Assembly (NCBI RefSeq): GCF_947166265.1
Contig: NZ_CAMVDO010000002.1
Location: 1 to 64,000, forward strand
DNA: 64,000 bases
Direction of reading: 5' to 3'
Source of the DNA: an uncultured Fibrobacter sp.
Lineage (GTDB): Bacteria; Fibrobacterota; Fibrobacteria; Fibrobacterales; Fibrobacteraceae
Below the pieces are notes generated by a model, which worked only from the letters and a program-made list of their open reading frames with translations, was not told the DNA's origin and made no database searches. Positions 51,185 through 62,123 of the stretch are shown piece after piece. Position numbers and translations under genes: made by a program. The stretch's first letter is position 1, and each line of letters begins with the position of its first letter.

Positions 51185-53071
51185 TTACTTCACAATTTCG
51201 GCGTCGACGACTTTCTTGCCGTTCACGGTTTTCGGGCCATTGTTGCCCTTGTCGCGACGAATGATCTTGTACTGCACAATGCTCCAGATGTTCGACACAA
51301 TCCAGTAGAGGACAAGGCCAGAGGGCATCACCGCACTGAATACAAAGAACATCGCGGGCATCATCCAGGTCATCATCTTCTGCTGAGCCGGATCCATCGC
51401 GCCGTTGCCGACCATGGTGACCTTGGTCTGGAAATACGTGGTCACGAGCATAATCCAGGGAAGGAGTGCAAAGCCGTCGGGCATAATAAAGGGGATGCTG
51501 AACCCATGGAAAATTACGTCACTGCGGCTGAGGTCGGTTATCCAGAGGAAAGCCGGCATTCCGCGAAGTTCCACCGCACGGCCAAGCACATAGAAAAGTC
51601 CAATGAAGATCGGCATCTGGATAATCATCGGGAGGCAGCCACCAGTGCAGCTTGCGAGCGGGTTCACGCCGTTCTTGGAATAGAGTTCCATGACAGCGGC
51701 CTGCTTCTTTGCAGGATCGCTACGGTACTTCACGTTGATTTCGTCGAGCTGCGGCTTGAGCTTGCTCATGGCGGAGGTAGACTTAAGCTGCTTGATGGTG
51801 AAAGGCGTCGTAAAGCCGCGAACAATGAAAGTCACGAGGATAATGGCGACACCGTAGTTCGGAATAATCGAATAGAAGAACTTGAGGAGCTTGAGGAGCC
51901 ACTTGCAGATCCACACGAACCAGACGCTGGAACCGGGGAACCACTTGGAACCGGTCACGATAATCTTTTCGTAGCCCTGGCCGAGCGATTCGACTTCGTC
52001 CCACTGGAGCGGAAGCACCATGAAGTTGTAGGCCACGGAATCGCCACGAACGTCGTCTGCAATAGAAATGCTGTAGGTACCCGGATCTGGGTTGTCTTCT
52101 TCGCCGACCTTGATATGCTTCGCCTTCACCTTGGCAGGCACCGGCTTGTCGAACTGCACCGACATGGCCACGTACTTGCGGCGAAGTCCCACCCAGTAGT
52201 ACTTGGCTTCGTCAAACGTCATGGCGTCGGAGAACGTTTCGCGTTCGGTAATTTCGCTGTTCTTGTAAATGACTTCGCTAAAGAAATAGCCGGCGACACC
52301 GATTGTCTTTCCCTTCGGAATGGATTCGGTTTCGCGCATGCCACCCTTCCAGGAAAGTTCGTAGTTATCGACACGGAAACCCTTGAACTTGTTCACCTGA
52401 CGTACGGCGGCACCGTCCTTGGTAAAGGCGTAGCTACGCACCAGCTGGTTGCCGTTAGCATCGGTAAAGACAAACTGCACCGACGTGTCGGAATCGACGT
52501 TGATCCATTCCGGGGCATCGACATCGAACAGGACTTCGGAAAGGTCTGCGCCGCCCACCTTAAGGTCGAGTGCGCCGAGAGTCGTATCCTGGATGAGTTC
52601 GGGGAACTGCTTTGCAGTATCCGGCAGGGCCTTCACGATAACGCTCTGTACCTTGCCGCCCTTGTTGCTAAGGGTCATGATGAACTTGTCGGTTTCGACC
52701 GTGACCGTGCGCTGGGCAATCGGCTTCGGGGCGGCGTCAGCGGTAGATTGCTTCGCTTCGTTCGCAATGACGTTAGAGGAACTGTCGCTGGCAGCGGTCA
52801 CTTCGGCAGGCTCAGCGACCTTGTCGGTTGCCGGAGCTGCGGCTCCAAGGACCGGGGCAGCCTTGAGTTCGGCTGTAGAACCCGGAAGCACGAGTCCGTT
52901 TGCAGACGGAGCCTCGGCGGAATCGGCAACCTGGGCAGCGGCTTCCTTTGCGGCGGCCTTCTGCGCAAGCTTCGCACGCTCGGCGGCTTCGTTATTCGCG
53001 GAGTTCATAAAGAACCACCAAATCATGATGGCGCCGATAAGAACGGATCCGATGATAGTATTCTTGTTCAT
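51185..53071 (-). CDS. yidC: Membrane protein insertase YidC
   Basis: The 628-residue YidC/Oxa1 protein has an N-terminal helix (about 5-23), a long low-complexity linker (25-120), a periplasmic P1 domain (about 125-375) and the conserved five-helix insertase core (about 385-605; GVAIILVTFIVRGFTTPFTIKQL, YRSDPAKKQAAVMELYSKNGVNPLASCTGGCLPMIIQMPIFIGLFYVL). It inserts membrane proteins alone or with Sec. The linker contains an in-frame repeat (VIANEAKQS, residues 101-109). Its ATG overlaps the yidD stop codon (ATGA), and the cluster order rpmH-rnpA-yidD-yidC is classical. Confidence 0.95.
   Translation of the reverse strand: MNKNTIIGSVLIGAIMIWWFFMNSANNEAAERAKLAQKAAAKEAAAQVADSAEAPSANGLVLPGSTAELKAAPVLGAAAPATDKVAEPAEVTAASDSSSNVIANEAKQSTADAAPKPIAQRTVTVETDKFIMTLSNKGGKVQSVIVKALPDTAKQFPELIQDTTLGALDLKVGGADLSEVLFDVDAPEWINVDSDTSVQFVFTDANGNQLVRSYAFTKDGAAVRQVNKFKGFRVDNYELSWKGGMRETESIPKGKTIGVAGYFFSEVIYKNSEITERETFSDAMTFDEAKYYWVGLRRKYVAMSVQFDKPVPAKVKAKHIKVGEEDNPDPGTYSISIADDVRGDSVAYNFMVLPLQWDEVESLGQGYEKIIVTGSKWFPGSSVWFVWICKWLLKLLKFFYSIIPNYGVAIILVTFIVRGFTTPFTIKQLKSTSAMSKLKPQLDEINVKYRSDPAKKQAAVMELYSKNGVNPLASCTGGCLPMIIQMPIFIGLFYVLGRAVELRGMPAFLWITDLSRSDVIFHGFSIPFIMPDGFALLPWIMLVTTYFQTKVTMVGNGAMDPAQQKMMTWMMPAMFFVFSAVMPSGLVLYWIVSNIWSIVQYKIIRRDKGNNGPKTVNGKKVVDAEIVK
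52744..52775 (-). repeat. Repeat element translated within yidC
   Basis: TAGATTGCTTCGCTTCGTTC followed by GCAATGACGTTA is a copy of the widespread CGTCATTGCGAAC...GAAGCAATC repeat, read in frame as NVIANEAKQST at residues 100-110. Confidence 0.8.
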
Positions 53072-59407: not shown

Positions 59408-61966
59408 CTAGAAATAATACTCAAAATTGAGCATGATCGGCAGGAACGGGAACTGGGTCACTTCGGTCTTTTCGGGCGGATTCTTGCTCGTGTCGTAGAA
59501 CGTATAGAACATGTTCTCGTGATCCGTCAGGTTGATAATGGTCCAGCTGAAGTTCCACTTGTCTTCGCGACCGATGTCGATCGGCTTCACGTCGATTCTA
59601 AAGTAATCTGTCTGGCGGCCCGCATTGCGGCTTCCCGGAAGCACCACAATCTGGTCGGAAAATTCCTGGTGTCCGAGCTCCTGCGAAAAGTAGTAGCCCT
59701 TGTATTCGCTGATCGGCATTCCCGCCGAATACTTGAGGATAATGGACGAGCGGAAATAGCGGCCAGGAATCTTGTGCTTTCGGCGGGCATTCTCGTCGCC
59801 CTTCCAGTTGATGCCCGCATCGAGCTTGAGGGCATAAGGCTGATGCCAGCTCGGGTAATACGGCCTGGTACCGTCATCGGATTTCATCACGCTAATGCTC
59901 TGGCTCCAGTTGATGCCGCCAAACCACCAGCCCCTATCCTTACGCAACGAAAGTTCGTAGCCGAAGGAGTAGCCCTCCGCGCGTCCGAAATAGTCCGCCA
60001 TCACAAAATCGTCGGAAGTCGTTTCATCGTTACTGTCGAGCTCGACCACGAACGTATTCAGGTTGTTTTGCGTCTTGTAGTACACCCCCACGGTCGCATC
60101 GTAGTCTTCAAAGATTCCGCGCTGGCTGTATTCCGCGGCAAGCAACCACGACGAGGCTGGATCGATTTGAGTCCCCTTGGTCGTTTTTGTTGCTGGATAA
60201 TAGAATTCGTTCAGCGTTTCCTGGTCGGTATAGACAATCGAATTCAGGTACTGCAGGTAGTAGCCGCCATAAAACTCAAGCGTCTTTTCGTCATCGAGGT
60301 TGATCGTCAGGGAGGCTCGGGGTTCCACGCCAAAATGTTCCGCGGCGGTCTGGTAATTGAAACGAAGGCCGTACTGCAACAGATAATCGGGAGCAAATTT
60401 CCAGGCATCCTGCACATAGCCCACATGGTGGAAAGGCTTCTGGATATCGGCCGCGCTTACCGTAGACATCTGTTCCTGGTAACGTTCGTAGTCATATTCC
60501 AGCTCGTAGCCAAAGGTGAACGTATGGTTCGAAATGCCCCTGAAATTCAGCCACTGCTTTCCGGCAAACGTGTACAGGTACATCTCGATGGACATGAGTT
60601 CGCCGATTTTCATGGTCTGGTAGAATTCGCTAAAGGCAAGCGTCGCGTTGTAATCCCAGTCGCCGTTAAAGCGGTGGTAAAGGCCGAGCGGAATGGCGAT
60701 GTTTCCCCAGTCCATATAGAGCGGGTCAAAGCTTAAGCGGTCCTTGCCGATATAGTAGCTGAACTTCATGCGGGTATCGTCAGTGAAGTTGTACATAACG
60801 GTGCCCTGCAAGTCCGTAAACTCGTAATCGAGATTCAGGTCCAAAAGGCCAATGGCATTGCAAAGGTCAAGCACGTAGCCAATGTAGGTCGTACGCCCCG
60901 CAAACACCCAACGGGCCGGCCCCTGATGACCTTCGGTATGGAGCTGCGCGGCGAAAGTGCTTATCTTGATACTCGACTTGCTGAACCATTCGTTCACGGT
61001 ATCCTGACCGCCCGCACGGCCATCCATCTTGAGCACCGAACTCAGGCGGTTGCCATACTGCGCCGGGAAACCGCTCTTGTAGAACTGCACATCGTCAATG
61101 CCTTCGACAAGGAAGGTGCTGAAAAGTCCGAAGAAATGCACCGGGGAATAGACAACGGCGTTATCGAACAGGAAAAGGTTCTGGTCGGCGGCACCACCGC
61201 GCACGTAAATCTTGGAACTGAAATCGGAACTTGCGACCACGCCGGGAAGCGCCTGGATACTCTTGATGACATCGGCTTCGGCAAGGCCCGGCATACGCTT
61301 AATGGACTTCGCGGAAACTACGGATTCACCGGGCTTACGTTTTGGACGGCGACGGAGCTGCACCACGACTTTCTTGAGCTCGGTCACCTTCGCGTTGTCG
61401 CCTGCGGCAAGGAGAGCGTCGACATCGACGTCACGCTTTGTACTGTCAGACGAATCGCTACTAGAGATTGCTTCGTCACTTCCGTTCCTCGCAATGACGT
61501 TTGTAGAATCGGGGCGTTGCGGGGTGTCCCCGCTAGAAGGGGTAGCGGATGCCGTGTCAACGGCAGCAGCGAGGGGATGGCCATTCCCTTCTTTTTTCTC
61601 GTCTTCTACAAATGCTTCGCCGAGTGCCTGCGAGAAAGCACGTTCTGCACCGATGTACTTGAGTTCGTAGCATTTTTCCTTTTCGGCTCCGGCCGTGTCG
61701 GAATTGGTAACGCAGATGTTCCAGAGCGTATCTTCGGGAAGCACAACGCTGAAGGACTTACCGACCGTCGTCTGTAGCGCCTCACCCGATTCAAGAATTT
61801 CCACGTTCAGCTTTTCGTCTGCCGCGAATGAGGAATCCAGCACGACACCGTTAAAGACAATTCCTTTCGGTGCGAGGGAATCAGGCGCAAGGGAATCCGA
61901 CGCGGTCTCTTGCGCCATAGCAGCGATTGCCGCCAACATAACGATAATGCAAATTTGAAGTTTCAA
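59408..61966 (-). CDS. TonB-dependent outer membrane receptor
   Basis: The 852-residue precursor has a signal peptide (MKLQICIIVMLAAIAAMA), an N-terminal beta domain (about 33-115), a Ser/Asp/Glu-rich linker (about 120-195) and a plug domain (about 200-330; VVSAKSIKRMPGLAEADVIKSIQALPGV, KIYVRGGAADQNLFLFDNAVVY). A 22-stranded barrel ends in FEYYF with terminal Phe. Plug-in-barrel receptors import siderophores, cobalamin or glycans with TonB energy; substrate not evident. A repeat element is translated in the linker (VIARNGSDEAIS, residues 157-168). A 26-bp palindrome lies 27 bp upstream of the start. Confidence 0.9.
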   Translation of the reverse strand: MKLQICIIVMLAAIAAMAQETASDSLAPDSLAPKGIVFNGVVLDSSFAADEKLNVEILESGEALQTTVGKSFSVVLPEDTLWNICVTNSDTAGAEKEKCYELKYIGAERAFSQALGEAFVEDEKKEGNGHPLAAAVDTASATPSSGDTPQRPDSTNVIARNGSDEAISSSDSSDSTKRDVDVDALLAAGDNAKVTELKKVVVQLRRRPKRKPGESVVSAKSIKRMPGLAEADVIKSIQALPGVVASSDFSSKIYVRGGAADQNLFLFDNAVVYSPVHFFGLFSTFLVEGIDDVQFYKSGFPAQYGNRLSSVLKMDGRAGGQDTVNEWFSKSSIKISTFAAQLHTEGHQGPARWVFAGRTTYIGYVLDLCNAIGLLDLNLDYEFTDLQGTVMYNFTDDTRMKFSYYIGKDRLSFDPLYMDWGNIAIPLGLYHRFNGDWDYNATLAFSEFYQTMKIGELMSIEMYLYTFAGKQWLNFRGISNHTFTFGYELEYDYERYQEQMSTVSAADIQKPFHHVGYVQDAWKFAPDYLLQYGLRFNYQTAAEHFGVEPRASLTINLDDEKTLEFYGGYYLQYLNSIVYTDQETLNEFYYPATKTTKGTQIDPASSWLLAAEYSQRGIFEDYDATVGVYYKTQNNLNTFVVELDSNDETTSDDFVMADYFGRAEGYSFGYELSLRKDRGWWFGGINWSQSISVMKSDDGTRPYYPSWHQPYALKLDAGINWKGDENARRKHKIPGRYFRSSIILKYSAGMPISEYKGYYFSQELGHQEFSDQIVVLPGSRNAGRQTDYFRIDVKPIDIGREDKWNFSWTIINLTDHENMFYTFYDTSKNPPEKTEVTQFPFLPIMLNFEYYF
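61464..61502 (-). repeat. Repeat element translated within the TonB receptor
   Basis: GAGATTGCTTCGTCACTTCC followed by GTTCCTCGCAATGACGT is the CGTCATTGCGAGGAAC...GAAGCAATCTC repeat, read in frame as NVIARNGSDEAIS in the linker before the plug. Confidence 0.85.
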
Positions 61967-62069: not shown

Positions 62070-62096
62070 GGAGATGCCCGCCTTCGAGGGCATGAC
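62070..62096. repeat. Hairpin repeat (GATGCCC...GGGCATGAC)
   Basis: GATGCCCGCC-TTCGA-GGGCATGAC, a compact member of the local repeat family, between the TonB receptor and the caspase-like gene. Confidence 0.75.
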
Positions 62097-62123
62097 AGCT
62101 CCGCGAACGTGACAAGTTTGCTG

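Follow-up and report, generated by a model that had tools for sequence, protein, structure and literature searches.

Translated palindromes are best known from Rickettsia. Described repeats that most resemble the one analysed here include: (i) the CGTC-tagged REPs (Di Nocera et al. 2013, PMC3733652), which have an unpaired (C/T)GTC tag and a single 8-9-bp stem that opens with AT..AT, and which are dispersed, mostly intergenic with some intragenic copies, and free of a linked transposase, (ii) the Rickettsia palindromes RPE-4, RPE-6 and the longer RPE-1 (Ogata et al. 2000, 2002, via PMC3733652 and PMC2229807), which are found in frame in many conserved genes, and (iii) the GTAG REPs/REPINs with RAYT, which are small palindromes with an unpaired tag and genome-wide dispersal. 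RPE-6 and RPE-4 are equated with CGTC-1 and CGTC-4, and the Rickettsia members of the CGTC-tagged super-family, with those of some other genomes, are known as in-frame inserts (PMC3733652). One Rickettsia protein with an insert was found by assay to be translated and active, with an altered substrate affinity (PMC2229807). A nearby case is that of different REPs at about the same recB site in two Xanthomonas species (PMC3733652). These statements follow the available portions of PMC3733652 and PMC2229807.

A repeat of this kind, element A, is located within the gene of a TonB-receptor-type protein in a 64,000-nt stretch of the genome of an uncultured Fibrobacter sp. (the window; Table 1). The minus strand at 61464-61499 reads CGTCATTGCGAGGAACGGAAGTGACGAAGCAATCTC, starting at 61499 and ending at 61464. 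The codons at 61463-61498 of ORF 59408-61966(-) specify VIARNGSDEAIS (residues 157-168), with VIARNGSDEAI read within the receptor. An earlier note had placed an in-frame repeat insertion at 61464-61502; the repeat is real, while its true span is 61464-61499 of the minus strand. A 17-base half of element A is unique within the window (2 matches at ≤3 mismatches; chance mean 0.25); thus, the window alone is no proof of a repeat, and the genome counts supply it. The pattern GTCATTGCGA-N{4,30}-GCAATC has 38 copies in the 3.77-Mb genome of the window (G000; 89 contigs), and its reversed control has 0. Of the genomes searched, 59 of 61 in the genus and 45 of 80 in the phylum carry the core pattern.

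Table 1. Coordinates of the repeats, their host genes and neighbouring features.
Feature	Position	Strand	Description and basis
Element A, CGTC-tagged REP-like palindrome	61464..61499	-	Read as VIARNGSDEAIS; 38 genome copies, control 0
Element B, 80-nt three-hairpin repeat	61510..61589	-	Read as ...GNGHPLAAAVDTASATPSSGDTPQRP...; end-to-end alignment with Fibrobacter, Treponema and Alphaproteobacteria copies
Variable low-hydrophobicity linker, about residues 116-198, holding B and A	61373..61621	-	Both ends approximate
Host gene, TonB-receptor-type protein, 852 aa, start TTG 61966	59408..61966	-	Plug domain (Pfam) at residues 215-307
yidC, host of second element A copy	51185..53071	-	60KD_IMP and YidC_periplas domains (Pfam)
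Second element A copy (short type) in yidC, ahead of the YidC periplasmic domain	52746..52771	-	VIANEAKQS; genome pattern search
Sister palindrome TGTCAT-stem-ATCTCC, CGTC type, 8-bp stem, 4-nt loop, intergenic	62070..62097	-	Genome pattern search
GACGARA tandem loci	L317, L327, L328 (yidC); L035 (receptor); L063 (glycosyltransferase)		

Element A has an outer stem of 5 bp, followed by a small internal loop and an inner stem that varies. The inner part is distinct in 35 of the 38 copies and yet self-complementary, with a mean stem of 2.97 compared to 1.70 when shuffled (maximum 2.21) and 1.91 when the arms are swapped (maximum 2.29). RNAfold of a single copy of element A is no better than shuffles, and an automatic inverted-repeat search does not include element A among its results. 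The palindrome is not visible by single-copy folding and is instead visible at the family level, through the self-complementarity of the inner stem across copies. In three genomes (G096, G117 and G128), A-type units of the long and the short type are opposed on the two strands, one to some tens of bases apart, in a manner that resembles REPINs or head-to-head REP dimers.

The features that define the CGTC-tagged REPs are shared by element A to differing extents. The unpaired CGTC (or TGTC, CCTC) end is present, the base preceding GTC being C in 30 and T in 8 of the 38 copies, with GTC itself fixed by the search pattern. The complementary A, T stem opening is found as ATTGC..GCAAT in element A and as AT..AT in a sister set of palindromes; this opening is built into both search patterns, so its support is the copy number relative to the reversed controls and not an independent test. 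The sister pattern TGTCAT-N{8,38}-ATCTCC has 51 genome matches compared to 2 for its reversed control. Many sister copies (ATGCCCGC-GTAG-GCGGGCAT) match the 8-9-bp stem with a 4-5-nt loop. By contrast, the copies of element A show the composite arrangement described above in place of the single stem of the published repeats. The published tail is short and unpaired with the consensus CCA (PMC3733652, available portion); the base after ATC in element A is T in 23, C in 14 and A in 1 of the 38 copies, and the next base is A in 20 and C in 18. Association with a transposase is lacking for the Y1 class, to which this comparison was confined, and no RAYT gene flanked by the repeat was found. By its tag, its first base pairs and the absence of a linked Y1 transposase, element A fits the CGTC-tagged REP super-family; its composite stem agrees with the published stem rule in part only. 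Fibrobacterota are absent from the five phyla named in the available portion of PMC3733652. The likeness to the Rickettsia RPEs, which belong to a different phylum, is one of description and not of sequence comparison, and the GTAG REPs/REPINs differ in their tag and in having a RAYT partner, none of which was found for element A. Among the papers listed by a literature search on Fibrobacter with palindromic or REP repeats, the titles and abstract beginnings show nothing on such repeats. The kind of element is known already, and its occurrence in Fibrobacter proteins is new as far as the literature was searched. Two features extend beyond what is known of this kind: a single orthologous linker has been used repeatedly by several families of repeats, of which the available portion of PMC3733652 gives no account, and a second repeat, element B, is present.

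The host receptor gene is matched in 41 of 41 related genomes. Residues W, F, Y, I, L, M and C make up 8% of the receptor linker compared to 31% of the remainder, and this composition, together with the alignment, suggests that the linker is disordered. A phmmer search of the receptor against the PDB gave no match at E 0.001. Among 30 aligned receptor homologues (25 of the genus and 5 more distant), the element A peptide is found in the window's copy and is missing in all 29 others, which supports the earlier proposal of an in-frame insertion into a disordered-looking linker. The three nearest orthologues (L033-L035; 84-86% protein identity) have element B or a decayed B in the same position and no element A; thus, element A is younger than B.

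REPs that differ in sequence, strand and position occupy this one receptor linker across species. Of the 25 genus orthologues, one fragment (L052) was left out for want of anchors; the linkers of the other 24 (4,854 nt in total) have REP hairpins in 11, element B in 6, a GACGARA tandem in 2 and any repeat in 16. The remaining 56,550 nt of these receptor genes include six weaker hairpin matches, all GTCGT-headed, and no GTCAT-headed hairpin. When 25 linkers were codon-shuffled, the mean was 0.18 with a maximum of 2 in 500 shuffles, compared to the 11 of 25 observed. The hairpins include a GTCATCCTGAGC..AAGGATC palindrome (L042 and L046) and reverse-strand CGTC hairpins (L041, L043-L045, L047, L055 and L056). 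From sequence and position, we read at least seven distinct repeat entries into the receptor linker. One linker (L039, of genome G002) has a REP nested within an element B that is itself in the gene, with the frame kept.

The copy of element A in yidC is of the same family as that of the receptor (26-base versus 33-base type), in agreement with the earlier description of one as a variant of the other. A similar peptide occurs in 2 of 23 other yidC orthologues, and the DNA repeat is present in both. A-type hairpins are found in 3 of 24 yidC linkers and nowhere in the rest of yidC; in G019 and G001, the palindrome is in the same position with different inner parts. The peptide without the DNA repeat was looked for in the receptor and yidC homologues and was not found. 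Besides these two genes, element A enters genes for uvrA-like, GSCFA and glycosyltransferase proteins, a trpC-trpF fusion (2 copies) and a DUF3418/OB_NTP_bind protein, which we take from this domain pair to be an HrpA-type helicase (hrpA). The glycosyltransferase of this genome has both B and A, whereas the G014 orthologue has B in the same position and no A. In-frame insertion combined with absence in orthologues, as in the RPE definition, is found for the receptor, yidC and glycosyltransferase; the other genes are judged by Pfam context only. In the trpC-trpF linker (L028:1501-1712), the two copies of element A are in opposite orientation and are directly followed by the peptide CHPEQAQRVEGSP, apparently a GTCATCCTGAGC-type repeat read in reverse.

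The surviving in-gene copies of element A are in frame and without stops. The view that coding entry is tolerated holds. That it is also frequent, as the earlier note suggested, is true only in the sense that entry occurs: 8 of the 38 copies are in genes, compared to about 90% of the window being coding (34 ORFs, called by our own codon-usage score trained on the window), such that coding copies are strongly under-represented, by about four-fold. Likewise, the receptor and yidC copies are in variable linkers as had been proposed, and B lies between the two domains of the glycosyltransferase and the first trpC-trpF copy of A between two Pfam matches, but the inserts of GSCFA, HEM4 and the glycosyltransferase (element A) are inside Pfam matches.

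This distribution is very probably explained by the insertion of CGTC-REPs followed by selective loss, from which disordered linkers offer a refuge. As a CGTC-tagged REP, element A would be a short, non-autonomous and dispersed palindrome of Fibrobacter genomes, and its copies were presumably moved by transposition-like copying. New copies would arise elsewhere by an enzyme-driven process, the Y1 class having yielded no mobilising enzyme for element A. In-gene copies would be purged unless the frame is kept, no stop codon is introduced and the extra residues are harmless at the site. Disordered linkers would best meet these terms, and the receptor linker could thus gather several unrelated repeats across species. 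In the window's receptor, element A would have been added beside an older copy of B, and its peptide is presumably neutral. A target-site duplication was not seen at the insert junctions in the receptor and yidC comparisons, the empty sites having diverged too far for one to be recognised.

Exchange between existing copies, instead of new movement, could also spread the repeats. That recombination or gene conversion between linker copies carries them from one gene to another, in place of independent insertion, is rather unlikely, although some features point this way. In-gene copies of element B share a middle hairpin (CTGCCGCTGACGCGGCA or close) in the receptor, FeoB, glycosyltransferase and others, whereas most intergenic copies differ, and in yidC the bases that surround the palindrome are common to the linkers of G000, G001 and G019, yet G000 is nearer to species without it. 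Against such exchange, the same receptor linker is filled by REPs of differing sequence, strand and position, and most copies of element A are intergenic. The intergenic location of most of this DNA also weighs against conservation of the peptide, by which a functional linker motif would have arisen through convergence. The VIA frame is used by 4 of the 6 in-gene copies of A that are on the coding strand, and all classified in-gene copies of B are in one orientation; however, other frames and the opposite strand are also used (uvrA, trpC-trpF and GSCFA copies), orthologues are without the peptide, and the inner stem is kept at the DNA level, which leaves convergence very improbable. Repeats commonly cause misjoins and the assembly is a draft, but the copy is inside a 277-kb contig with the frame kept and comparable inserts are found in the same linker of other assemblies, so an assembly artefact is hardly credible.

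By analogy with the GTAG REPs, a Y1 (IS200/RAYT-type) transposase may be considered as the mover. The general REP architecture is in keeping with such an enzyme, and Y1_Tnp matches are found in 20 of 61 genus genomes. By contrast, the other 41 genomes have no match, the counts of element A do not differ between genomes with and without Y1 (Mann-Whitney p 0.29), and the window's genome has a partial Y1 match only. A GTCAT hairpin is in the flanks (≤1.5 kb) of 3 of 26 Y1 loci, the nearest about 220 bp away, none of the 26 is bracketed by GTCAT hairpins on both sides, and the core of B is at 0 of 27 Y1 loci. A like absence of a dedicated transposase is reported for the CGTC repeats of other phyla (Di Nocera et al. 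2013, PMC3733652, available portion). Movement by a Y1 enzyme is, on this evidence, improbable.

Element B was found when the DNA of the receptor linker was searched against the genome and is unrelated to A; the earlier note had overlooked both this repeat and the intergenic sister palindrome at 62070-62097. It spans about 80 nt and is arranged as a GGGGAAAGCCTTCCCC-type hairpin, a variable hairpin and ACCCC-N-GCGGGGACACCCCGCAACGCCCC. The core is matched in at least 120 stretches, most with the same surrounding architecture, and the taxa among the matches listed are Fibrobacter, Treponema and other spirochaetes, Chitinispirillia, Alphaproteobacteria, Myxococcales, Verrucomicrobia and Bryobacterales. 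Thirty-five hand-picked copies, including the window's, align over 85 columns. RNAalifold on these copies recovers the first and last hairpin only, with almost no covariation; the middle hairpin has its sole support in our own energy comparison, in which the middle part folds at a mean of -9.1 kcal/mol compared to -5.6 shuffled and -6.2 arm-swapped. As a known RNA, B was rejected by cmscan (Rfam) of seven B loci, which gave no match at B; its output was confined to tRNAs and three matches below threshold, two to the L20 leader and one of plastid type. A literature text search with three sub-strings of B returned no relevant paper. Element B is apparently an uncatalogued, structured, multi-phylum repeat and is worth separate study as such. 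The GGGGACAC of B fits the GGGGWSAS motif published for the TIR repeats of TIRYT transposases (Di Nocera et al. 2013, PMC3733652, available portion); B as a TIRYT terminal repeat was rejected on its absence from the Y1 loci of the genus.

Of the 8 copies of element B in the genome, 4 are in genes. Among 40 rows classified across genomes, the in-gene copies are all in coding orientation (15 of 15). The first ten loci of this set came from protein-search matches, which favours genes. The remaining 30 loci are the first listed match per genome; L117 failed the B pattern and was left out, and the other 29 yielded 30 copies, of which 8 are in genes when L100, L104 and L114, already among the first ten, are counted again. 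The window's copy is open in 4 of 6 reading frames. Element B is also within pseudouridine-synthase and RlmL-like genes of other species; the core is one base shorter in the RlmL-like genes, which places the end of B in another frame. In Alphaproteobacteria, B is about 90-320 nt upstream of ArdC anti-restriction genes (L255:6645-7625 and L258:1106-2062) and of ParB-like genes (L281:997-3015 and L242:849-2990), a position at which a mobile element might be expected to have a folded single-strand signal. Unlike this placing, B looks dispersed in spirochaetes and Fibrobacterota.

A broader and tentative proposal is that the disordered linkers of Fibrobacter envelope and other proteins could be built largely from translatable mobile palindromes that accumulate in them and belong to at least two unrelated families (the CGTC-REPs and the cross-phylum B). 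A sub-lineage of B with its middle hairpin fitted to one frame would then imply that selection acts on B to be harmless when translated. One orthologous linker with repeated, even nested, entries is traceable here through 24 species of a free-living gut genus; thus, the origin of the linker sequence and the mover of the CGTC-REPs are testable by close-strain comparison.

Further repeats and features accompany these elements. Sister copies are in genes in 4 of 50 matches (topoisomerase, BirA-like, CobA-HemD-like and Type ISP), the 50 including a few evident non-elements (e.g., L165:1150) and one double count (L145). A third in-frame repeat is formed by 7-base GACGARA tandems, which are read as DERRETKDER in linkers of different genes and species. 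The minus strand of the window at 27576-49247 is a single ORF of 7,223 codons, and its codon score is like that of coding DNA.
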